From a virus: 35,352 nucleotides of DNA. The DNA is taken from positions 1 through 35,352 of IMG/VR virus record IMGVR_UViG_3300007539_000073, one strand, 5' to 3'. Below the pieces are notes generated by a model, which worked only from the letters and a program-made list of their open reading frames with translations, was not told the origin of the DNA and searched no databases. A program made the position numbers and the translations under genes. This document shows positions 8,197 through 33,800 of this stretch, in pieces (the first letter of the stretch is position 1; each line of letters opens with the position of its first letter).

Positions 8197-8416
8197 TGAC
8201 TTCAAACAAGGTGAAATCATAGAGTGGAAAGAACACAGAGGTTTCATTAATTTCATCTGCGAACAGTATCTAACTCTATGCATCCGAACTTATGACAAAC
8301 CCCAAGAAGTTGCAGCACATTCAAGACACAAACAAAACACAGTCTGTTTACTCATCTTCCGACACGATTGGAACGACATTAGAAGAACAACTCGATTACA
8401 TCAAACTAACAACTAA
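8177..8416 (+). CDS. Small beta-rich hypothetical protein, 79 aa
   Basis: This protein begins MKNLSVDDFKQGEIIEWKEH and continues with strands (FINFICEQYLTLCIRT) and a C-terminal CLLIFRHDWNDI. That is the pattern of a short SH3-like or similar small barrel, in which a G-E-I-I-E-W strand is followed by H-R-G-F. From memory, similar sequences occur in many cyanophages as hypothetical proteins. Its last 125 bases overlap a second open frame (8292). I consider this the better candidate of the two because of its protein-like strand pattern. The function is unknown. Confidence 0.65.
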   Translation: MKNLSVDDFKQGEIIEWKEHRGFINFICEQYLTLCIRTYDKPQEVAAHSRHKQNTVCLLIFRHDWNDIRRTTRLHQTNN

Positions 8417-8498
8417 GGAGATTGTTTTCATTCTGTGGAATAGTTGGCGAGATTATTTCATCCGACAACGTAACAACAACCGTACAGACACTAATTAA
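8292..8498 (+). CDS. Hypothetical 68-aa frame overlapping the previous gene
   Basis: ATG 8292 to TAA 8496-8498, in a different frame from the gene at 8177, which it overlaps for 125 bases. The part beyond the overlap (residues about 42-68) contains KEIVFILWNSWRDYF, a plausible amphipathic or membrane-binding helix. The overlapped part (MTNPKKLQHIQDTNKTQ) looks unstructured. Either both frames are used, or the true 3' gene begins further downstream or by frameshift from 8177. The DnaA-box-like cluster follows three bases after its stop. Confidence 0.4.
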   Translation: MTNPKKLQHIQDTNKTQSVYSSSDTIGTTLEEQLDYIKLTTKEIVFILWNSWRDYFIRQRNNNRTDTN

Positions 8499-8501
8499 TA
8501 G

Positions 8502-8541
8502 TTTTCCACAATAAATGCGGAAATTGTGGAAATGTGGAAAA
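8502..8541. promoter_or_regulatory. Cluster of DnaA-box-like 9-mers
   Basis: TTTTCCACA occurs at 8502-8510 on the + strand. Its reverse complement TGTGGAAAA is at 8533-8541 and a one-mismatch copy TGTGGAAAT at 8525-8533. TTTTCCACA is the DnaA-box form described for cyanobacteria (the Escherichia coli form is TTATCCACA). The outer pair also makes a 9-bp inverted repeat. The cluster sits in the largest gene-free block (8499-8732). It may be a replication start, a DnaA-titrating site or a DnaA-regulated operator. Confidence 0.5.
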
Positions 8542-8658
8542 AAACCTATTTGTGTGTTTTATCTCTCGATTAATGTCTCCGTTTGTTGTACTCTTAGCAC
8601 GCATCCTAACAGATGTCAACCCCTGTGAGAATACGCAGATAAATGTCAGTAACGCCCC

Positions 8659-8687
8659 TTGACTTATTCTCACTTTTCCCTTATAAT
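8659..8687 (+). promoter_or_regulatory. Near-consensus sigma-70 promoter
   Basis: TTGACT (8659-8664) and TATAAT (8682-8687) are separated by exactly 17 bases: one mismatch in the -35 hexamer, a perfect -10 and optimal spacing. Predicted transcription start is near 8694, 39 bases before the ATG at 8733. It is the best host-type promoter in the window and lies about 120 bases downstream of the DnaA-box cluster, suggesting early transcription by host RNA polymerase. Confidence 0.75.
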
Positions 8688-8732
8688 AACACTGTAAGGG
8701 TTCATACAAACCTTCTACTATCTTCCAGACTT

Positions 8733-8936
8733 ATGTTGTACACTATCTACGATGATTCAGAGATCCTCAGAGGTACTTTCAACAGTATCTACGACATGGA
8801 AAGGTATATCGATGGAGTTCGGAATACCAGGGGAGAAGCATACCCAGAGACTCCGAGAATGTCTCCCTTCGATTATATCAAAATGATCGGATGGTCTTGG
8901 GATTGTGTTGACAACTATATGGAGAGTAAGGTATAA
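8733..8936 (+). CDS. Small hypothetical protein, 67 aa, behind the strong promoter
   Basis: I start at ATG 8733 because the promoter at 8659-8687 lies inside the longer in-frame reading from 8643, so the extra 30 residues could not be made from it. The 67-aa protein is compact: a strand (MLYTIYDDSEILRGTF), a helix (SIYDMERYIDGVRN), a loop rich in Pro and Glu, then a second helix with MIGWSWDCVDNYM. Its fold resembles many one-domain phage early proteins, but I do not recognise it. It stands alone between two non-coding regions and is probably strongly and early expressed. Confidence 0.7.
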   Translation: MLYTIYDDSEILRGTFNSIYDMERYIDGVRNTRGEAYPETPRMSPFDYIKMIGWSWDCVDNYMESKV

Positions 8937-9127
8937 TGAGATGGACAGTATTGGGGGTTCTTCGATGTAACTAACTAGCCCGTTACTAAATGTTAAATAT
9001 GGCAGGTTTTTATGCCCCCTAAATGTTAAAATCGGCCACTACCCTAACCTACAAAGGTTCCCCAGCGCCCTAGATATTATTCGAGTTAATCTCAACGGCG
9101 TATATAAAAAAATTTCTCAGGTAAAAA
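8937..9127. other. Non-coding region with 12-bp direct repeat and AT-rich box
   Basis: No convincing frame occurs in these 191 bases. Two exact copies of CTAAATGTTAAA lie at 8986-8997 and 9019-9030, 33 bases apart (about three helical turns), as expected of a pair of protein-binding sites on one face of the helix. TATATAAAAA (9101-9110) lies 18 bases before the ATG at 9128 and vaguely resembles a late promoter. I see no clear terminator for the preceding gene. Confidence 0.4.
8986..9030 (+). repeat. 12-bp direct repeat pair, putative operator
   Basis: CTAAATGTTAAA occurs at 8986-8997 and again at 9019-9030, start to start 33 bases. The flanks differ, so this is not a longer duplication. The position, between an early-type gene and the genes that lead into the structural block, suits a regulator site. 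Confidence 0.5.
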
Positions 9128-15869: not shown

Positions 15870-18800
15870 ATGAATATTAATAAGGTTTCTCAGTCTATTG
15901 CGAGTCAGACACCAGACTTCATTGGGTCTGAATATCCCCTGTTTAATAAGTTTATTGAATATTATTACAGGTCGCAAGAAAAAACAGGTCTTGGACAGAA
16001 CATTGTCAATAATTTCCTTCAATACCTGGATATTGATAAACTGGATATTGGAATTCTTGACGGTTCCACTTCTGTAGTAGAAGCGATTTCTGCAGAAAGT
16101 GAAACTATTGTGGTAGAATCTGTTGATCAGTTTCTGGACACTAATGGTTCTATACTGATTGGTGATGAAGTAATTTACTATGAAAGCACCACTTCATCTC
16201 CTAACATTGCTCTGAGTCCTGGTATTTCATACGAGCAAGTAAAATTAAAATGGACTACTCTTGCTCAAATCATTGATAGTTTTGATGGAACGACTCGTTC
16301 CTTCCCCTTGACTTCACAATCTAATCCGATTGGACCTCCTAGCGCACAACACCTGATTGTTAGCGTTTATGGAGAGGTTTTGATTCCTGGAACAGATTAC
16401 ACTGTTTCTGGAACAAATATTGTCTTCACTACTGCACCCAGAACCAGAATTGCATCTGATGACAATTCAGCGACATATATTACTTTCCTAAGTGGTTTTA
16501 TTGAGAATACCATCGTCGGTGTTGATAATATCTCGAATTCCTTTGGTGAAGGTAAAACAGAATTTAAACTCACCAGAAATGGGGTGAAATATGAACCCAT
16601 TGTTGATGAGTATGTAGTAGCAGTATATGACAATAAACTTTTAATTCCTAAGGTTGATTACTTCCTTGATGGTGATGTGTTTATTTTTAACACAGCACCT
16701 CTGAATGGAAGATTTTTATCAGTTTATTCTATTGAGGCACCGATTCCTTCTTTTGGATCTAATGCACTTGGATATGCTCGTGTCAATAATGATGGTGAGT
16801 TAACTTCTATCTCCGTCAACGAAAATGGAACTGGATACAAGTTCCAATATCCACCTAAAGTTTCTATTAACTCTTTTGGTGTTGGTGGCGGTGCAAGTGC
16901 AACTGCTCTTGTAAATGGTATCAAATCTTCTACTCTTCTGGATGGTGGTAAAGGTTATAGTGATACCAACCCTCCAACTGTAGTTATTGAAAATCCCACC
17001 GTTGCTGGTTCTAAAATTGCTGAACTCAAAGCAACTGTAACTAATGGTGTTATTTCTGGGATTGAAGTTACTAATTCTGGTAGTGGATATACTTTTACCC
17101 CTAGAGTAACATTCAAGCAGCCTGGTGGCGCTACACTAGGCACTCCGACTATTAGTAACGGTTCTATTACTGGAACTATTCCTATCACTAACGGTGGTCA
17201 GGGATATACTACTGCACCCACCATTTACGTTGATGAACCTCTGGGTACTAATCCTATCAGGGCAAATCTTCAGGCAGTTATTACAAATGGTGTGATTACC
17301 AGTATTAACATTTTGAACGCTGGTCAAGGTTATACGACTGTTCCTAGGATTGCTGTAGTTGATCCCACTGGTGCTCAAGTTCTTCAGACACAAGTCGATG
17401 GAGACGGACGTGTTATTGGCATTGAACTACTGAGTGGTGGTAGTGGTTATGATGATGTACCTTCTGTATACATTGTCGATAATAGAACTAATGGTGGTAC
17501 TGGTGCAACTGCAACAGCATCCATCTTTAATGGTAGAATTACTGATATCAATGTTAATAACTTTGGTAGTGGATATAGTGCTGCCAATCCTCCACAAGTT
17601 GTTATTCAAGCACCTCCTCAGGCGGAAGCATCTGTTGAGATTGGTTTGAACGAAATTACAGGTTTCACAATTAACAAACCTGGTAAAGGATATACTAAAG
17701 CACAATTTATTGGTTGTGCTAGAGCTGCTAGTGGTATTACTTCTTATACTGAAAGCGGCAATGCGGTGTTCTCCAATAATACTACTGCTGCTGCCGCTGC
17801 AATTAATACTAATGTAAAATGTCTTGACGCATTATTTGTCAAGAGACTTTTAGACAAATATACAGAACAGTTCCTTCCTGACGTTCCTGAACTTGATTAT
17901 AAGAAGATTGATGTTCGTACAGCAATCAAGTCTGTAAAAGATTTTTACTCTGCAAAGGGTACTTCTTTTAGTGTTGCATATCTGTTTAAACTTCTGTATG
18001 GTGAGCAGATCAGTATTTCGTATCCTAAAGATCAAATCATTAAACCATCTTCTGCAACTTGGTCTATTGATACAATTCTTCGTGCAACACTGGTAAGTGG
18101 TGATCCTACAAATATTAAAGATGGTTTGCTGACTCAAGAAGCAGATATTGCAGATCCTAATATTAAAGCAGCGAGTGCGTTGGTTGAGAACTATATCTCA
18201 ATTAAAACTTCTGATGTTGAGATCTTTGAACTTGTTCTGTCTGAAGAAACTATTCAAGGTTCTTTCACAGTTCCTTATAAAACAAAACTGGCAGAACCTC
18301 TTGGAACTGAAGATAATGTTATTACAGTTGACTCTACTATTGGTTGGCCAGAAAGAAATGGTGAGTTTGTAATTGGTGGAACTGAAGTAGTTCAATATAA
18401 AGAAAAATCTCTGAACCAGTTTATTGAATGTACTCGTTCAGCAAATGGTATTGTAGAAGACTGGGATTCTGCTACACCTGTAGCATCTAATTTTACTGTC
18501 TTTATTAACAAAGGAACTGCACAGGAAGTAGTATTGAATGTTGTTGGTATTGTTGATGCACAACAAACAACTCTTACTGACACTGGATCTTACTATCTTG
18601 CTGGTGATAAATTATCAGTATCTAAACTTGGTGGTACATCAGTAAAACCAGAACTCAGAACCTGGTTGTACAATGTTAAAAAACTGATTGAAGTTGCTAG
18701 TGTGACTTTCGGTGGTATTGATAATCGTTTTGCAACAATCACTTGTTCTAATCCACATGGTCTCTTGGTTGGAGATCAGGTTACAGTTTATGGTGCAAAC

Positions 18801-21800
18801 CCCATCATCTATAATGGATCTTTCTTAGTCACTTCTAGAGATAGTGAAACTGTATTCCAATATCAACTTCCTGCTCCTGCTACAGTTATTCCTCAGGGTA
18901 ATATCTTAGTATCAGTTGACTTGAATAAGGGTAAGTCGGACAATAGTGCTGTACTTAATTCTATTGGTCCTTACACAACAAACATACAGAACTCGTTCTT
19001 TAACGACAACTATGTTTATGTTGCATCTACAGGTATCCCCAACTATAAGATTGGTCCTTTCCCTGGATCCGCTCTGTTACCTGGTAACCAGCGTAAATTA
19101 AACAGATTCCCACTGGTTCCTCAAACAATTTCTACCAAAAATGCTATCTCTCCTGGTCCTATTGGTACATGGGTCAATGGTGTTTCTATTTGGTCTTATA
19201 AGTCGAGTGTAACTAAGACATTTGGTCCAGTAACATCTATTGATATTACTAATGCTGGTTCCGACTATGACGCAGCATCTCCTCCAACTATTACTATCGC
19301 TGGTGGCGGTGGATCTGGAGCAGCAGCAAGCGTTGTCGTCGATGGTTCTATCACATCAATCAATGTTGATGCTGGTGGATCTGGATATACTTCATCTCCT
19401 CTAGTCTCTATTGTTGGTGGTGGTGGATCTGGTGCTGCTGCAACTGCTATTATCACTAAGGGTGTTGTTTCTAGAATTCTGATGAATTCTGGTGGTACTG
19501 GATACACCTCACAACCGTCTATTACCATTGTTGGTGGCGGTGGAACTGGTGCAACTGCAACTGCATCTGTTCGTGGTCCTATCAAGTCTATTTCTGTAGA
19601 TGCAGGTGGTGCATCTTATACGTCTAAACCAACTGTTTCTCTTAGTTCTGGTTCTGGTGCTGTTGCTCAGGCAATTGTTAGTAACGGAAGAATTATTTCT
19701 ATCGCTATCATTTCTGCTGGTAGTGGTTATACCACTGCTCCAGAAATTACAATTCAAGGAGATGGTTTTGGTGCTGTTGCTCGTGCAACTATTGATACTG
19801 ATGGTGAAAATGCTGGTAGAGTTACTGGTATTGAAATTCTTAACAGAGGTATCAACTATGTTCAAGGGACTACTTTAATTAATCTGACTTCTGTTGGTTC
19901 TAATGCAACCTTCAGTTCAAATGTATTCCAATGGACTTACAATTTACAAGAAACAGAAACAGTTGATTCTGCTAAAGGTGGTGTTTTTGCTGGATTTAAT
20001 AATCAATATGGTGGTGAATATGCACACATTTCCAATCCACAAAGACTGAGATATATCCTTGGTGATAATTTATTTGAAAATACATCTGGTGCAATTCTTG
20101 AACAAGATGATCAGTTAACACACTCTCCTATCATCGGTTGGGCGTTTGATGGTAATCCGATTTATGGTCCTTATGGATATACCGATCCTACCGATCAATC
20201 TTCTGAAATTTCTAGACTGGATACTTCATATCGTCTGAAGACAAATCTTGTTTATAATGAAACTACTAATCCATATCCTGTTAGAACTGCAGGACCTCTT
20301 CTGACTGAGGAAGCAGCAGGTAGATTTGTTAATGATTATGAGTATGTTTTCGGTCTTGGTGATTTAGACCAATATAACGGTCGTTTTTGCAAAACACCTG
20401 ATTTTCCAGAAGGTAGATATTGTTACTTTGTTACCATTGACACCACTGAAGCTGGCAATTCTGTATTCCCGTATGTTTTAGGTCCTGACTTTAACTCGGT
20501 TGTTGATTCTTGGAATCTCAACAAAGATGCAGTACAGCAAAATATTCCTACAGGTGTTGTTCGTTATAGGGATCCTTATGAGAACGTTGATATTGACGTT
20601 GAGAGAGCGCCTAATGCATCTACAAACGCTTTAACTACTGAGGGTGGTGATATTCTTCTGTTTGATGTAGAAGACGAGAATAGAGACGGTGTTATCTCTC
20701 AAGATGAAATTGATGATCCCGATCAATTGTTTGAAGAGTCTCCTTTGCAACTCTTTGACTATTTCCCCAAAGTTAGATTTGACTCTAAAGTTGATATTGA
20801 AGTTGAGACAATCACTAAATTTGAAGATGCTGCTGTAACTGGATTTATTGTTGAAAACCCTGGTAAAAACTATCAGGTAAATGATATCTTGACGTTTGAT
20901 AATACTGATACTGAAGGTATTGGTGTATCCGCTCGTGTTTCTAGAATTAAAGGTGAAACTGTTACCTCATATAGTTTTGAAACGGTAAATGATAAAAACT
21001 ATGGTGTAGTTCAGACCCAAGTACCTCACAACATTGCTGCAGGTGACACGGTTTACATGGACTATAATCCTGTTATGGATAACACCAATAAACAGTTTAT
21101 TGTTCGTCAATTAAAAGGTATTGAAGAAGTTGTAATTACTCAAACTGGATCTGGTTATGATGAAGAGATTCCTCCTACAATTATTATTGATGGTGATGGT
21201 GAATCTGCTAAATTAGAAGCAGTAGTAACTTCTGTTGGATCTATTGAGAGAGTTAACATTATTAACTCTGGTTCTGGATACACTAAAAATCCTAGAGTTA
21301 TTCTGAGTCATCCTCAGGTGTTTAAAAAGGCAGATTATTATGTCTCAACAATTGCGAATCAAAACTACGTCAAAGTTAATGATGTAATTGTAAATGATGA
21401 TAAAGAAATTTTCTTCTGTGGTAAAACTTTAGATGCTAACAGTAATGAAGTTGCATTTGTATCCAAATTCTCTGCTCTTGGTGTAAAAGAGTGGGAAAGA
21501 ACTTTAGAAAGTCAAACAGGTGAAACTTATACAGAGTTTCTTAAGTTGGATGTTAGTGGAAACAATGTTTGGGTAGTTGGTGAGAACAAACCCAATGCAC
21601 CCGTTCTCGCTGCATATAATCCAGACATTATTCTGGCAAAATATACACAGGCTGCTGATGGTCTTAGTGCTACATTAACTTTCCAAAAAGGTTATGCTGG
21701 TATCTCTGGTTCTACTCGTGCAGATAAAGTAACTGCAATTAAGAGATATTCTGATACTCGTTATATTATTGGTGGTTATACAAATACAAACTCGGCAAAT

Positions 21801-24800
21801 CCTTATGATGCTTTCATTGCATCTATTGATTCTACTGGTAATTTTGCTGCCAAGAGAAAAATTGCAACTGCTGCTAAGTCCGAAAAACTTCTTGATCTAA
21901 TTGTTCTTGATGATGCAGTATACTTTGTTTTAGAGACTGCAGATAGCAGCAGTTCTAACGATGTTAGAGTTTCTTTTGGTAAGGCACTAATCGGAACTAG
22001 TGTAATTACTATTGAGTGGATTAAGGAAATCAATAATTCCTTGTATTCTTTCATGGATGTGAGTTTGGTTAGCGACGAATTTAGTGAGTGCTATGTTGCC
22101 GCTACTTTGAGACTTAAGTCCGACAATACAACTAAAGATAGTTTCTGGGTTGGTAAGTTTGATACCACTGGTGATCTTCTTTGGAACTACAGATATGTCG
22201 CACCCTCTGGACAGTCTATTCAAGTCGCACAAAATTCTGTAATTGATATTTTTGGTGATTTGAACGTTGCATTTACTAGAACTGATAATACAACCACTTA
22301 TAAAACTGTAGATACTGTCAAAATTGGTTATGATGGTAAGTTAAAGTCGCATACTAATAACGAATTCAACAAAAATAATATTGAAGGCATTTCAGCACAT
22401 GCTTTAGCTGTTGATAATTCTGGTGACGTTTATACATTCGGTCAAACCTCTTGGAACCGAAATGAATTTATCTTTGCCTTTGCTTCGGGTGAAACTACTG
22501 ATACTTGTGCTCATTATACTGGCACATTTACTGGCACTGGTGGTGCAATTCAGTATCTTGCAAATGCGGCATATATGCCTGCATATCAGACTGCATCTCC
22601 TTCTGCCTGGGAAAATGCAAACATTAAAATTACTGCAGCACAACTTGGAACTAAGTTGAATGACGACTGGACCTGTGAATTCATGGTCTATAAGAATGGT
22701 TCTGAGTACAATACTCACAGTCAAACTCAAGTCACATTGATGGCAATCGGTGATGCTACCGTTTCTACTGGTGGTCTCTGGTTGTACTATGATCTTTCTA
22801 GTGGCAAACTGGAACTGGTTGTTACAAACAATACGACAGCACTTAATTCTGCAGGTAGTGCATTACAGTCAGTATCGACAACTATGTTTGCCGATAACAG
22901 TTGGCAGTTTGTTGCAGTTAAAAAGTCTGGTAATACCTTTACTGGATATGTAAATGGTATTCAGGTATTTACTGGTACTATTGCAAACACTAGTCTCGGA
23001 AATAAAGACCTGTTCTTTGGTAATATTCCTGGTAGAAGCACAACTCTTGGTCAGTTCCGTAAGAACGAACAGTTCCAAGGATACTTCGACAATATTAGAC
23101 TTAGAAACAGAGCAGTTACTCCTACAGTTCCTAGTGATGTTTCTGCACTTCCCACTTCTGGTGGATTTGCTCTTGCTTACGATTGGTCAGATGATGCTTG
23201 GTTTACAACTAATTTGAACCGTTACGATTATATTGATTATATTGGTTGGGGTCTTAAGACTGATAAAAATTCAGATGCTGCAAGACTTGGAGATCAAGGT
23301 GTTAAGACTAACACTGGAGTTGGTTTTGCCAGAACTGCTGTCACTGCTGTCACTGGATCTACGCTTACAGTAACCAACACTGGACTCGCTCTGGGAACCG
23401 CTGGTCTGCAGACTTTAGACTTTGATGATGCGACAATTACTTTGGCTCAGGACACTGAGACACTTACTTATGCTGTTGATGAGTGGAGTTCTAGAACATC
23501 TACAGTTCCTTCTCCTGGATCTCAGAAACTGAAAGTAAATGCTGTTGTTAAGAACAGATATTATATGAAGGTTACTAACACTGTCAAGATTGACAATGTT
23601 CAGGAACTTACTATCAACCAAGCATTCAATTTCTCAGTTGGTGCAAAGTTACGTTTGAATAATACTTCGGGTGCTTTTGTTAATAGCGGTTATATCTTAA
23701 AAGTTGATAATACTAATAATAAAGTATATGTTGCTGTTAATAATAACGCCTGGTCTGATGATCTGAACACTGGTAATTTAGTTACCGAACAGTTTGCTGA
23801 GCAAAGCACTTATGGGATCACGGGTCCTGTTCCTAATGATGTTAATGATATCGTTGATTATATCTTTGAGAAGGTTAATAATACTACACCTGGCACCTTT
23901 AATATCGATCTAGACAAGTACAATTTAGATGGAACATATAATGCAGGTGGCGGTCAGAATCTTGATTCCTTCGCTAAGTTCAAACCATTTAACACCGATT
24001 TTTATAGCGTTAAAATTGAAGAAGTTTCTGGATCATCGACCTTTATCGTTGGATCTGTTGTTAACATCTCATCATCTGATATTTCTTTCAATGCTGCATA
24101 TACTACTGCACAGATTACAAATCTTACTGGCGTTCTGAAAATAACTTTAGTATCTACTCTGAGTAAAACTCTTCAATGTACTGCTGTTGCCAATACTGAT
24201 GAAGTGTATGTTATCACTGGTGATAAGCATTATCTGAGTGTTGGTGAAAACGTTAATGTTGATGGTAATCCCTCTCAAGAAGTTAATAGTGTAACTTACG
24301 ATGAGTATGACGGTTCATTTATTGTTGATCGTGTAGTAAGTTCTAAAGAATTTACATACAAACTACCTCAGACAGCAGTTTCTGCACCTGCAACCTCTGC
24401 AGCAAATGTTAGTGTGTTTGTCAAGTCTCCTGTCTTGAAGATGTACTATGGTCACCAGTATCTGTTCGACCTTAGTCACTCCTCTATGGCTGGTGCAAAC
24501 CTGTCATTCTCTAAAGATAATCTGTTCAAACTTGAATATTCCTTCAACTCTATTGAAAGAATTGGAACACCTGGTTTGACTGGAGAAGGGCAACCTACAC
24601 CTACTGTGAAACTGAAAGTAGATCGTGACATTGTAACAAATATCTCATATTATTTCGATCCTTCTAGAACTGGTGATGATTCTCCGATCGCATCTTCTAG
24701 TTATCTCGATATTGTTGATTCTCCTTATGTCGGAACATTTACTATCACAGATACCTCTGGAGGAACAATTACTACTGGTGATAATATCTTTAAGTTCTTA

Positions 24801-27800
24801 TTGGCTAACGAACCCGAAGGTGTTGCTACCGTTTCTCAAACCACTTATAGCACCTCCTCTACAAAGGCAGTTGGTCCTATCAATGATATCAGGATTGTCA
24901 ATGCTGGTGGTTTCTACTCTAGACTTCCTGTTGTAACAGGTATTCAATCTTCTCGTAAAATTGAAAGAGTTGCTATTAATGAACCTGGTACTGAGTATGC
25001 AGTAGGAACTTACAATAGTGTTCCTATTGGTGGAGATGGTGAGGGTGGTTTGGTTTCTATCACCGTTGCTGATGGAACAGACTCTGAAGGTGTATCAATT
25101 CCTGGTCAGATTCAAGAAGTTGTTGTTACCTCTCCTGGTAAAGGTTACACAACAGCAGTAATTGATATCGAAGCAATTGAAGGTATTCTTGGTGCAGGTT
25201 TAACTGGATCGGGTGCAGAACTTCAGGTTGTTATTCCTCCGTTTGGATCTGGAGCATCTATTTTCACAAAGGGTGACAAAGTTGGTAAAATCAAGAAACT
25301 GAAGAATAACAACTTTGGTTATGATTATCCTCATGACTACACTTTGCGTCCAGAGATTACGTTCCCAATCAACGCACAGTTAACTTCTACCAGTATTCTT
25401 GATAGTATTACAGTTACTAACCCTGGATCTGGTTATTCTCAAGCACCTGCTGTTGTTATCACAGGTGGCGGTGGTCAGAATGCCGTTGCTGAGGCAACAA
25501 TTAGAAATGGTCGTATTGATCAGATCATTGTAAAAGATCCTGGTTCGGGATATTCTTCTGAACCCACAGTTGCACTTAAGTCTTCTTTCAACTATGTTGT
25601 TAACCTTGACTTGGGTCTTCTGCAGTTTGCATTCCCACATGGAATTACTAATGGTGCTCAAGTTACGCTTTCTGTAACCGATACTGGAGATGGCGCTGAC
25701 TTCCCTCTGGCAGCAGGAGCACTGGGTAGATTGAATAGCACTACAACTTATTTTGCAATTACAGGTAGTGCAAACTCTCTCGAAGATGATCAATTAAAAC
25801 TTGCGATTACCGCTGCAAACGCAGAACTTGGTGATGCTATTACATTTGCTAACACTGGTACAGGCAGACAGTCTTTGCTGACTGAATCTTTTGGTGCTGC
25901 AGCGACCGCAAATGTCATTACTTCAACTTTCCTTGAGGGTGAGTTAGTTTATCAAGGTGACAGTCTTGAGACTGCAACTGCTACTGGTTATGTTTCTACT
26001 AATAGTGGTTGGCAAGTTGGTCCTAGAATTCTTAAGATTGTTGATTACACTGGAGATTTTGCAAGTGGTCAAAGAGTAACTGGTGTAATTTCTAAGTCTT
26101 CTGGTATTATTAGCGATCTCAAGATTGCTAAAGGTGTCTTGGAGATTGGTTCTATTACTAAGACTACAGGTCAATTTATTGATGATGTTGGTAAGCCTTC
26201 TGAGATTATTCAAAAGATTCAAGACTCTTACTATTATCAAGACTTCTCATATGCAGTTAAGTCTTCTGTCTCTATTGATGATTGGAAGGATATCTTAATC
26301 AAGAATGTTCACCCTGCATCATTTAAAGTCTTTGGTGAGTTGAATCTGAATGAATATGGTTCTATTCCTAACAAAGAGACTGATTTTGAATTAACTAAAT
26401 CCGTTGAACTTGCAAGGCAGGCAACAGTACCCAACATTCAGAGTTTCTCTCTGGTTGAACCCATTTATTCAGAGTTCAATAATACTGAAGTTCTGTTCCG
26501 TCAAAAGAGACTGACTTCTTCGGAGAATATTCTTACCTCTGTTGTACAGCGTGTTGATGATATTTCTAACCTGTTTGATGGCGAAAGAATTTCATTCCCT
26601 CTAACTGTTGCTGGGAATAATGTTGTTGCAAACGCTAATCAGTTAATGATTGTTCTGAATGGTGTTGCACAAACTCCAAATACTTCGTTTGAGATTCAAG
26701 GAGATTCTATTGTATTCAGCGAACCTCCCTCTCCTCCTGCAAGTGTTAAGTATGTCAATGTAACTGTAAATCAGATTAATATTGTTGATCTTACATTTAA
26801 TAATCAAAGTGGTATTTTCCCACTTGTAGGTAATACTTTGGTTGGTGTTTCTTCTACAGCGAGACTGACAGTTACTAAGGTTGTTGGTGACAATATCCAA
26901 GGTTATGTGACCGAAGGAACCTTCATTATTGGAGAACTTTGCACAGTCGGTGCAACTGGATTCTCTGCAAACTTGGCAACTAATACTGCGATTAACAATA
27001 TTGGACTGTTCTCTTTCGGTGAAACTGTTACTAATCTCACAGGTGACACTGCTAAAGTTGAACAGATTAACCTCGAAAGAGGGCAGGAAACTCCTGTTGC
27101 AGATTTACGCTATACCATTGGTGCTGCAACCACTAGTTTTGAAGTTGTAACTACTGCTGCTGGTGCAGACGCACCTGTTCCTGCGGGCACATTTGTTCAA
27201 GGTGAAAAATATCAGTTTGGATCTGAAATCTTCACTGTTAATACTATTAGTAATGGTTCTCAATCCACAACACTGGGTGTAACTAGAGGTGAGGATGGGA
27301 CTCAAGCAGCAGCACAACAGGAAGATATTCCGATCTATGGAACACAGATTTCTGTTACAAATGCATTAACTCTTAGTAAAACTGCAGGTACATATCAATC
27401 TACACCTGGTCTTTATGATATTGAACTTAATGATGTTATTATTGGTGCATCTTCTGGTGTTGTTGCTCGTATTACATCTACTGCAGCATATCAAGATCCT
27501 GTAACTCAAGAGTTTATCGGACAGGTTAACATCTCTGAAGGTTCTTCCTTCTTTGGTCTGTTGTTCAACAGAATTACATCTCAAACTTATCCCAACATCG
27601 TTTTAGATGATATTTCTAAATCAACCGTAAGTATTGTTGATTTCACTGATAATGCAACTGCATTTGATGTCAAGTTCCCGTCAAATGAACTTATCAACAA
27701 CTTTGTAATTCCTTACGACACTGCATCTGGTGCTCTCCAACAGGATGAATTTATTCGCAATTATAAGGTTGAGTATGGTAGTTCTAGTGCAGATTTCTTC

Positions 27801-30800
27801 GCTAATGAAGGCGGCAAGGTTAGAAGACTGACATTTAAGGATAGTGTTGGCAGCGGATTCTTTGCTGCTGGTCAGACAATCAGAACCACTGACACTAAGG
27901 CAGAAGTTATTGGTTATAACCAAGCAAGAAGAACTATCTACCTTGGTAAGATTGGTAGAACTCAATCTACTGGTGCAGACTATCATACAGCAACTTTTGC
28001 TGCTGGAGCTGCTCTCAATACTTACAATGAGAGATATGGAACCGCATGTCTAGCACTTTCTCCTGGCGTTGCTCCTCATACTTTTGTTAGTGGTGTTGCT
28101 AATGCAATCACTGCATCTGTTGGTGCAAGTGGAACATTTACTGCAGCAGCAGGAACAACTTATGATCCTCTCTCTGGACTCTTAGTTCTCAATATTGGAA
28201 CTCACTCTCTGACTACTAGTAATAAAGTAACCATTGCAGACAATGGTATTACATTTACTTGTGATCAGGATAATAATACCTCTAATAAAACATATCCTCG
28301 TTCTACTGATCCTGCATCTGGTCAGGCACTTACTATTACCGCAACTACTTCTACAACAGTTACTGTTAACGTTGGAGCAGTTCCTGTTGATGAGTATATT
28401 AGTTATGCTACCTCTAGTGAATTTGGTTTTGGAACGGGTGCATTTACAGTTGAACTTTGGATTAAACCTCTCTCTGTTGCTGCAGGAAGTAAAACACTCT
28501 TTGACTTCAGAACAGCAGCAACTGAACTGTCACCGTATTTGTATCTCGATGGTGCGAATCTGAAATATTATAATAATGGTAGTGTTACAATCACTGGTAC
28601 AACAAACTTAGTTGCTGGAACTTGGTATCACGTTGCTATCAGCAGAAGTGGCACTACAACCAAAATGTTCCTTAATGGAACTCAAGAGGGTAGTGATTAC
28701 TCTGATGCTTCCAACTATGGAACCACGAAACCAATTAGAATTGGCGCTACTTATAACGCTGGTGCAGTATTCCCTGGTTATGTCGATGAGTTCCGTGTTT
28801 CTACTAATGCTCGTTATACTGGTGCATTCACTGCACCTGCAGGCATCTTCCAAGGTGATTCAAATACCAAATTACTTCTTCACTTTGATGGTACAGAAGG
28901 TCAAACTTATGTTGATGATTGGTCTGGTGCTGAAGGATTTACTAAGGGTGAAGAATTCAACAATGATGCAATCCTTGCAACCTCTAGAGTTACAGGCGCA
29001 CCTGCTGGATTTGCTGCAAAGAGTCAAAGATATTATGATGCTGCAAATCTTCTTCTTTCCAACAAAGACTTTATTGCAAAAGAAACTGTTCACTTATTGA
29101 CTCAGCAATATCCTTCATTGGCAATTCCTGGTGGAAATGTAAATTGTGAAGATGACATCGTTGATGTTATTGAAGAATTGGTTGAAGATCTTCGTAATGG
29201 TAGCAATAGTCATATTTGGGATACAGCAGCACTGTATGTCAATAGAACTACAACACCTATCACAATCAATCACGTTGATGGTGAGCAAGTAGAGACTGTC
29301 TGGGCATTCGATAAAGCAAAAGAAATTGCACAGTATATTATTACAAATACTCTTTGGACTGTTACTGGTTCTCATGGACTGACGCAGAAAACTGATGCAA
29401 CAATCACTGATTCCACTGCATCTTCTCTGAATCAATTTACCGTAACTGGTGCAACTTATGACGCCGCAACTGGTGTTATGGTACTCACGATTGGAAGTCA
29501 TTCATTGACAACTGCTTCTCGTGTTTCTCTTGCTACAGAGAGTCTTACATTTACTTGCACTCAAGATGGTAATGATCGTCAAACTGCATATCCTCGTGCA
29601 ATTGCTGGTGATGGAAATCCTGATCCTGCTTACAATGCAGTTCTTGCTGTCACCGCTGTTTCTGCAACTACAATCACCGTTAATGTTGGTGCTTCACCTG
29701 TTGGTCAGCAATATGCACACACCTTCGTCTCTGCCACTTCTAATGGTGTTACACAACTAGATTACAGTCTTGCCGATTGTGCTGATGTTTGGACCACTGT
29801 TGGTAACCTGATGGATATCATCACTGATACCCTTGAGCAAGCAAATCTCAGTTCCCCTGTTGATCACCTTGCAAGTGTAACTAAGGTCGAACCTGCATAT
29901 GAGTTCCAAGGTGGTACAGTTGATGCATTCTTGGAGACAGATTTCACAGTTAATTATCAAGACACTGTAAATGATCTGGTATATACCAATCAAATTGATG
30001 GTGATGCTCAATACAGATTCAGAGATGCTGCTGGTTTAATCCGTGCAAACCGCACACCTATCGTTGATAAGGCAGCAGCAGATATGATTGCTAGATATCC
30101 CGACCTTGCTCAGGATATGCCTAGAAATGAAAATGGTGGTAGCACTGATGGAACTCTTCGTTGTAAGACTGACCTTGGACTGATTCTTGATGGACTTGCT
30201 AATGACATTGAGAATGGTGGCAACAGAAACAGCGTTACCGCTGCTAACTTCTATATTGGTGCAAACGGAGAACTGCAGCACATCAGACTGCAAGCATTCC
30301 AGTCAATCTATGCACATGATCGCTTAGGTTATTATGCTAAACAGGCGATCACTGGAGATCTTGACGAAACTAATACCAACGCAATTATTGTTGGTGATTG
30401 GGGTATTACAAATGACGGTGGTAACTGTGCAAACGTACAGTCTGCTATCGATACATTGATTACAACAATCAATGATATTATTGCTCCTACAGACGAAGAC
30501 TTTAACATTGCTGCTGATAGAATCTATTTCAACAGAGATTATATCGCTCAGGAAATCACTGGACTTACAACTCAAGAGTTTACATATACTCTGAATAATG
30601 TAAATTACAGTGCATTAACATATCCTGGTTCAAATGGTCGTGTGACTTGTGAGAGAGATCTCAAACTGATTCTCTTGAGTATTATTTCTGATCTTCAAAC
30701 TGGTGGTACGAATAGCACTATTCAAGCAATTGAGTTGTATCTGAATGCAAATCTCACTATCAATCATATTGAGAATGAATTGCTCGCTACCATTTACTCT

Positions 30801-33800
30801 ATTGAACTGCTTAAGACATTTGCTGAGAGAGCAGTACAGAATCTTCTGTATGATCAATTTACCAATGTAACTGGTGATCAGTATGCAGCACAATTTACAT
30901 CGGAGACTGCATATCGTGATCAATTAACACCGACAGCGATTAATAACGTCATCTACAGAATTAGAGATCTTGTTGACACCTCTGTTTCTATCCTTGCTCC
31001 TGGTAAGGATGAAGCAAGAAGTGCTGCTAAGAATCTTCTGTACAATAAGAACTACTATAGAGAGGAAATCTCCACTCTGGCAACTGCACAGTTTGGTACT
31101 GGTGCATGGACTTATGACACATTCATTGATGGTTTAGTTGATGATGTCGTACATGATCTCATCACTACCGATGTAGATACTAGCGTATCTGCTTACACAA
31201 TTACTTTAAGTGCTTCTACTGGTGCTTTTGCGGTTGGTGAAACTGTCACATCTAGTGGTGGTGGAACTGCAACTGTTCTTGAATGGGATTCTGAGGATGA
31301 GATCCTCTATGTCGGTGCATTTACTGGCACTGCATGGGCAGCAGCGGACACTCTGACTGCTCCTTCTACTGCAACAGGAACCATTGCTACTAGCGGTGTA
31401 AGTTCTGCTTATGATTGGTACTCTTCTCCTGCAAACGTTAAGATCCTTTCTAAGGCAAGAACAATTACATCTAATATTGCAGGTCAAGTTCCTGGAACAA
31501 ACCTATTCACCAATCCTGAGGCATTCGCTGCTAATTGGCAGGTAAATTCCAATGGTGGTGTTGATTCTCTCTTAATTACTGATAATAATATTGCTGCTCC
31601 TGATTCTACAGTAACTGCAGAGAAATTCTACGCTGCTAACAATAATGGTGGAGTTCATGATACTTTCAGAGACTATAGTTTAACTGCATTTGAAACATTT
31701 GACTCCGATACAGTTAAGTTTGACTCGGGTAGCGAAACATTTGATACTGGTGCTGTTGGAATTGATGCGACCCAAACATTCACATATTCGGTCTTCTTCA
31801 AATCTGCTGGATCTCAATCTGTCAGATTCAAGATTGCTCTTGATCCTGGCACCGCATCTGAACAGAATATTTTCTTCGATCTCAACCTCAACGCTGGAAC
31901 CACAGGATCTCTGTTCATTCCTCAGGGTGGTCTAACGGGTGATGCTTATGGTGCTGTTCCTTATGGTAATGGTTGGTATAGAGCATATATTACAACAACG
32001 TTTGGATTTGGTTTCTCTACACTCAGAGCATCGGTTATTGTTAACTCTGCTACTGGTGCAAACAACTGGACTGGAGATGGTGCTGTTGGTGCATACTTCT
32101 GGGGTGCGAAACTCAATAAAGGTGCGCTTGATCCATATCTCGCAGTTAGTGGTGAAATCTTCTACGCTGATACTGAGTACAATATTAAGAAGTATGCAAT
32201 TGACCTTCTTGAAGGATTTATGGGTCAAGCACTTGACAATACTCTGACCTCACCTTCTACTAATGCTGGTTTCTATTCATTCTATGATTCCACTGCTGCA
32301 TCTGATTATACTAAGGCAACAATTCAACGATTTATTCGTTATGGATTGAATGTCATTCGTGAGCAGTTGAATACTGATTCTTACTACACAACTCTGACTC
32401 AGGTAACTGGCATTTCTCTAGTTGCTAAGACATACGGAATTAGAGATATCCCTGTCGGAATTGCTGGAGGTCTGCAGTCCTCTGATTACATTTATGGTTT
32501 GAATAGTGATTCATATGCTGAACTGGAAAGCATCTCACTTAATGAGGCAAAGATTGTTCAGGTTTATAAGAGATTTAGAATTGATGGTACTATCACTGAC
32601 GGTCCATTCATTATGGGCGAGGTAGTTACTAAGCAAGGTGCTCCCTCTGTTACTGGCGTCGTTTATGGATTCCATGAAGATGCAAACTATAAGTATCTTG
32701 ATGTTCGTGTTACCGCTGGTCCTTGGGCAGTCACAGATACTCTTGTGGGTGCAACTAACTCTACAACAGCACAAATTAGTGCTGAGGAAGATAGATTACA
32801 TGTTATCGATCTTAAGGGTGAATTCACTAACAATATTCCATTCAAGGGATACACCAGCGGTCAAACCGCTCAACCTACAGGATTCCTTAAGACTCAGGCT
32901 GCTGTAACTAGCAATCTTGGTGGTACTCTCACAGTTGATACTGAAACTCTGCTTGGTTCTTTCGAGAAGACAGCAGTTGTTTATCCCGAATCGTCTAGAC
33001 AATACCTCGATGTTAGTAAGTATGCTGGTTTAGATGTTCAGGTTGGTCAAAGAATCGCATCCGAAGGATATATCCGATTGGGTGTTTCTATCGTCAATAA
33101 CTTGAATGTATTCACTGAGGGTGGAAGACTTTACAAGGTTGTTAACGGAAACCAAGATACTAATACTTACGGCATCATTACTGAAATCGATCTTAATAAT
33201 AACTACATCTATGTTTCACAAGTCTTAGGAACATTCAATAACGGTGATTTGGTTGGTGATTATGGTGTAGGTAATAGTTTCCCTGTTGGATACGCGAGCG
33301 TATCTACCAAGGTTACAACTGCTGGTGCCGCTGCTGCTCTTGTACAAGATATTCGTGATGTTGGTCTCAATAAGAGAATCTATCTCAGTGATATTCGTGG
33401 AACATTTGATGTTAAAGATTCTATCAAGGGTCTCGATGGATACCGCGCAGCAATTCTTGCTAAGGTTGATCTTAAGGCAAGAGTTAAGCGTGCATTCAAG
33501 GGATTTGATGGTACTCAAACTAACTTCAAACTCACCACAGATAATGGCACACAATACCTCCCTGACCCCGCAGGTCACCTGTTGGTATTCATCAATGGTG
33601 TTTTACAACCTCCTGGTGCTACAAATGCATTTACTGCATTCTCCGATGAAATTCAATTCACTGAGGCACCTGATCCTGGCGCATCCTTCACTGGATTCTA
33701 TGTTGGTAAGTTGAGACAACTGGATGATATTTCATTCGAGTTTGACTCTCTGCGTCAGTCCTTCAACCTTAAGCGTAGTGACGTATTCTACTCACTGACA

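Follow-up and report, generated by a model that had tools for sequence, protein, structure and literature searches.

Conserved clusters of predicted cyanobacterial-type DnaA boxes in the control region of T4-like cyanophages, a candidate site of replication start

A compact cluster of predicted cyanobacterial-type DnaA boxes was found in a non-coding control region of a T4-like cyanophage, and the identity of the boxes, their non-random occurrence and their conservation in related phages are well supported by sequence comparison. We tentatively interpret the locus as a divergent-promoter control region with a predicted docking site for host DnaA that would help to start phage replication, a reading to which we give slightly less than an even chance. 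T4-like phages serve as the textbook example of replication that needs no host initiator; to judge from the boxes, T4-like cyanophages may use or sense host DnaA, though they are thought to replicate without it. The cluster is a candidate location of replication start in these phages and, being conserved and phased, offers a precise, testable site for host-cell-cycle control of very abundant ocean viruses. DnaA is not mentioned in PMC3037559 or in the review PMC2984593, and no earlier report of DnaA boxes in cyanophages or T4-like phages was found in the open-licence literature, an earlier report elsewhere being possible.

Position, sequence and chance expectation of the box cluster

The DNA analysed, referred to as the window, is the entire 35,352-base IMG/VR record IMGVR_UViG_3300007539_000073, a fragment of a T4-like cyanophage that is closest, among named phages, to those of Synechococcus such as S-SM1, S-P4 and Syn19. 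The cluster lies at the start of a non-coding stretch of about 230 bp, from the end of an open reading frame at 8498 to the start of the next at 8733, with small early-type genes on one side of the locus and baseplate genes on the other. The upstream gene (8292-8498, plus strand, 68 aa) has its stop 4 bp before the first box; the downstream gene (8733-8936, plus strand, 67 aa), the first gene of the rightward promoter, belongs to a T4-GC 640-like family, its Syn19 counterpart being annotated T4-GC 640. Elsewhere in the window, a single open frame of 6180 aa after gp6 (15870-34412, plus strand), very large for a phage structural gene, takes up half of the sequence.

An exact cyanobacterial DnaA box, TTTTCCACA, occupies 8502-8510 on the plus strand, and the same 9-mer stands at the syntenic place in most relatives. 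On the minus strand follow a near-exact box, ATTTCCACA (8525-8533), 14 bp from the first and replaced by an exact TTTTCCACA in many relatives, and a second exact TTTTCCACA (8533-8541). A weak box-like copy between these strong boxes, ATTTCCGCA (8516-8524, minus strand; with columns conserved at about 0.8-0.9 across 47 non-redundant loci), may be a further DnaA site. A sequence-only reading of the window had reported two exact boxes and one near-exact box, inverted and intergenic, within 8502-8541, and these coordinates were verified.

The two copies in the cluster are the only exact copies of TTTTCCACA in the 35,352 bases, for which 0.7 would be expected. Copies with one mismatch number 11 in the window against 15.4 expected and thus show no enrichment, so the signal resides in clustering and not in number. 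First-order simulation of the window gave two exact boxes with starts no more than 31 bp apart in 2 of 1500 runs. Across 25 complete T4-like cyanophage genomes, with 120 exact boxes in total, an exact pair within 60 bp was present in 18, where 0.19 such pairs would be expected if the boxes were scattered, and a 19th genome (S-SSM6b) carries a variant cluster of TTATCCACA, ATTTCCACA and TTTTCCACA at the same place. All clusters in those genomes are at this locus or at most about 1 kb away, second clusters within about 1 kb of the first occurring in ACG-2014d and S-ShM2. At least two host-consensus boxes thus recur within tens of bases of each other, beyond chance. The sequence-only reading had named random scatter of similar clusters through the genome as evidence against its interpretation; no such scatter was observed in the 25 complete genomes, and the cluster is well supported as non-random and conserved in related phages. 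The phage T4 genome has five TTATNCACA sites, none of them clustered, and no DnaA-box cluster.

The 9-mer TTTTCCACA is identical to the DnaA box at oriC of S. elongatus, Anabaena and Cyanothece, and is experimentally supported in Anabaena and Cyanothece (PMC4674748), in agreement with the earlier designation of the boxes as cyanobacterial-type. The host WH7803 encodes dnaA and has TTTTCCACG-TTTTCCCCA shortly upstream of dnaN, and other host-family genomes, GC-poor ones included, have TTTTCCACA or one-mismatch boxes upstream of dnaN; some minus-strand dnaN loci, whose reading in the wrong orientation was evident from a missing ATG, were left out of this comparison. The phage variants TTATCCACA and ATTTCCACA fall within the usual tolerance of the box. 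Host DnaA probably binds the phage boxes cooperatively. The WH7803 genome also contains an inverted exact TTTTCCACA pair with a 35-bp gap (G001:C1:1819368-1819420, L246), far from dnaN and dnaA.

Conservation, arrangement and loss among related phages

To guard against circularity, the only criterion for choosing relatives among viral contigs was the CTTAGC...GTCAA block of the leftward promoter-like element, a different conserved feature 60-110 bp from the boxes; nearly all block-selected loci with enough flank have at least two boxes, 60-175 bp upstream of the block. A gapped profile of the box-free half was then run over the block-selected contigs and contigs fetched via the gp6 gene, and found the element in 134 loci. 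In the 122 of these with enough flank, a set assembled in part through that element and in part through gp6, at least two boxes were present in 89, one in 6 and none in 27. Averaged over the 47 non-redundant loci, column identity was about 0.75 for the boxes, 0.78 for the segment between them, 0.48 for the sequence upstream and 0.88 for the leftward promoter-like block, which itself served to select these loci.

The arrangement of the boxes differs among relatives and includes an inverted pair, three boxes, direct 11-bp arrays (ACG-2014d) and, elsewhere, 12-13-bp arrays, yet the 9-mer and its known variant TTATCCACA persist despite changes in orientation, number and spacing. In 71 unique inverted pairs from cyanophage-like contigs, which are not all independent, gap lengths being inherited, the gaps are concentrated at 4, 14-16 and 25-27 bp, lengths separated by roughly one helical turn, and show a phasing R of 0.86 at 11 bp, compared with 0.36 in other contigs (n=24). 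Spacing across relatives is thus helically phased while orientation is free, which points to a protein that would assemble cooperatively on one face of the DNA. These traits also weigh on the improbable alternative that the motif serves as an operator for a different protein, whether of the phage or of the host, and looks like a DnaA box by chance. Such an operator would fit the segment between the boxes being as conserved as the boxes themselves in the inverted-pair family, and the DnaA boxes are predictions from sequence; however, the motif is identical to the host box, tolerates TTATCCACA, is free in orientation and is helically phased, all of which are traits of DnaA boxes and not of a fixed palindromic operator.

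The inverted repeat could also be imagined to form an RNA hairpin or terminator with a stem of at most 11 pairs. This explanation is barely credible and was rejected: folding is no better than that of shuffled sequences (z -1.1), the alignment has no covariation, no Rfam match was obtained, and several lineages carry boxes in the same orientation only, as direct repeats, so that the stem is impossible there. A coding minus-strand open reading frame over the region was likewise rejected, as the lengths of the aligned indels are not divisible by three.

In a gp6 tree built by a quick method, the cluster is characteristic of one large clade, within which it was lost about five times (the P-SSM4 clade, the S-TIM4 line, L460, the L300/L313 clade and L283), and the P-HM1/P-SSM2 branch has no cluster. 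Lineages that lost the boxes keep the neighbouring promoters, and the function of the boxes is therefore dispensable. A rule by which Synechococcus phages have boxes and Prochlorococcus phages lack them was rejected, as it is only a trend. Boxes are absent from the Prochlorococcus phages P-SSM2, P-SSM4 (L138), P-HM1 (L226) and P-RSM4 (L118), but P-SSM7 (L554, host NATL1A) has the cluster and the Synechococcus phage S-TIM4 (host WH8102) does not; P-HM1, P-SSM4 and P-RSM4 keep the leftward promoter-like element, and P-SSM2 lacks both. The presence of TTTTCCACA upstream of dnaN in low-GC Prochlorococcus-like genomes also argues against a host-genus rule. The literature describes Prochlorococcus as having no box near dnaA.

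Additional boxes were observed around the locus. Ten relatives have one more exact TTTTCCACA about 229 bp to the left of the cluster, either at the start codon of the upstream gene or immediately in front of it (L006:1284, L007:1279, L008:1284, L010:1272, L011:1272, L013:1272, L015:1287, L016:1278, L021:1278, L022:1279). Second clusters at L018:2175-2194 and at 53068-53092 of S-ShM2, 250-920 bp downstream of the first, each adjoin a promoter-like sequence or gene start. Recurrent inverted TTTTCCACA pairs with an 18-bp gap were also seen in five viral contigs of GC 0.45-0.60 (L585, L587, L600, L603, L618), a group mostly without cyanophage-like proteins.

Flanking promoters and possible roles of bound DnaA

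The box cluster is flanked by divergent promoter-like elements. The leftward element (8591-8619, minus strand; TTGACA at 8619-8614, a 17-bp spacer and TAAGAG at 8596-8591) is the most conserved non-coding block of the locus and, under the gapped model, keeps its 17-bp spacing in 79 unique loci; as its -10 lacks the usual final T, its promoter function is something that we infer. Its predicted start falls near 8584, which places the boxes some 45-85 nt further along in the leftward direction, and the predicted rightward start falls near 8694. On the plus strand, a rightward sigma-70-type promoter, TTGACT-17-TATAAT (8659-8687), which aligns in relatives, begins 118 bp downstream of the cluster, a distance that shifts by tens of bases among relatives through insertions. 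The sites for the putative host regulator thus show a skewed, intergenic and promoter-proximal concentration, as in a CtrA-like sensor. Cyanophages have sigma-70-like early promoters and no motA or asiA (PMC2984593). A perfect sigma-70 consensus (TTGACA-18-TATAAT, 12/12) is also present at 8908-8937 on the plus strand, overlapping the end of the 67-aa downstream gene.

In our preferred interpretation, host DnaA would bind the boxes between the divergent promoters and help to start phage DNA replication at the cluster by opening the DNA and/or by boosting a leftward non-coding transcript that would start about 45 bp from the boxes and cross them. Replication could depend in this way on the level or state of host DnaA early in infection, and recombination-dependent replication would later take over. 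We prefer an aid to replication start because of the analogy with lambda, in which host DnaA activates the origin through its stimulation of pR (PMC7466680). A single theta origin has been predicted for Syn9, as cited in the review PMC2984593; the finding, from the same source, that these phages encode their own replisome and recombination genes counts against a DnaA-dependent start, as does the loss of the boxes in several lineages that keep the promoters.

The locus lacks some features of a full oriC. The AT-rich conserved linker next to the boxes (8542-8590, conservation 0.72) is a candidate unwinding region but not an exceptional one: the least stable 50-bp window ranks in the lowest 0.3% in Syn9 and in the lowest 3-10% in the other phages checked, so that duplex stability is extreme in Syn9 only. 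No DnaA-trio follows any phage box, while in the positive controls, the dnaN upstream regions of low-GC Cyanobiaceae hosts (e.g. L525, L500), CTACTACTACT, which resembles a DnaA-trio unwinding element, comes after a DnaA box; WH7803 gave no match to the strict pattern. GC skew is monotonic, with no switch at the locus, in S-SM1 and Syn19, and skew at four-fold sites has no switch there in S-SM1, Syn19 or Syn9; an origin inferred from GC skew was accordingly rejected. Together, the lack of a DnaA-trio, of a skew switch and, except in Syn9, of exceptional melting argues against a full oriC.

The main rival to a role in replication start is DnaA-controlled transcription, in which DnaA would act purely as a transcription factor, repressing or activating the leftward and/or rightward early promoter and tying early expression to the host cell cycle; at the leftward promoter it could serve as a roadblock or as a stimulator in the manner of lambda pR, with the CtrA sites of alphaproteobacterial phages as a parallel. 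The placement of the boxes past the predicted leftward start and ahead of the rightward -35, the missing oriC-type unwinding signature at the phage locus, and the CtrA precedent, where focused intergenic clusters near promoters have demonstrated binding and regulation (PMC9437464), would all suit such a factor. We nevertheless consider it rather unlikely, as the distance to the rightward promoter is variable, the promoters remain where the boxes are gone, and the leftward -10 is non-consensus.

Of the three roles that the sequence-only reading had offered, a decoy that titrates DnaA to halt host replication appears the least likely, and we regard it as very improbable. Compact titration loci are known, such as datA of E. 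coli, and every replicated phage genome would contribute 2-4 high-affinity sites. However, each genome has one compact, phased cluster of 2-4 boxes and no enrichment elsewhere, not many scattered sites; titration would require neither strict phasing nor a fixed location next to promoters, and would take effect only once copies accumulate.

More broadly, a large family of lytic T4-like phages with their own replisome may gate replication start or the early programme on host DnaA, with timing tied to the cyanobacterial cell cycle and the link since abandoned in several lineages; this is conceivable, but we hold it to be doubtful.

Comparison with known host-regulator sites and origins

T4 origins such as oriF lie beside an early or middle promoter whose transcript is a possible primer, and their promoters are MotA-dependent. 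The proposed cyanophage origin would likewise lie beside a promoter with a transcript as possible primer, but T4 has no DnaA-box cluster and uses MotA-dependent promoters, whereas cyanophages have no motA (PMC2984593). With the cyanobacterial oriC upstream of dnaN (PMC4674748), the phage locus shares an identical box sequence and clustered boxes in both orientations; it differs in having fewer boxes, no dnaN, DnaA-trio or skew switch, and a position inside a phage control region.

The closest concept is provided by the CtrA-site clusters of pili- and flagella-tropic alphaproteobacterial phages, linked to lytic deferment (PMC9437464), which are also focused, intergenic, lineage-conserved sites for a host cell-cycle regulator near promoters. 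The regulator here is putatively DnaA, in contrast to the demonstrated binding in the CtrA system, and none of the subsets of phage genomes in that study had a skewed distribution of DnaA sites. Finally, in the lambdoid pR/ori-lambda region, host DnaA beside an early phage promoter influences origin activation (PMC7466680), as is proposed here. Lambda is temperate and has its own initiator O with iterons, whereas the cyanophage is lytic and T4-like with no iterons seen, and the cyanophage boxes differ from those of lambda in matching the consensus exactly and in being phased.
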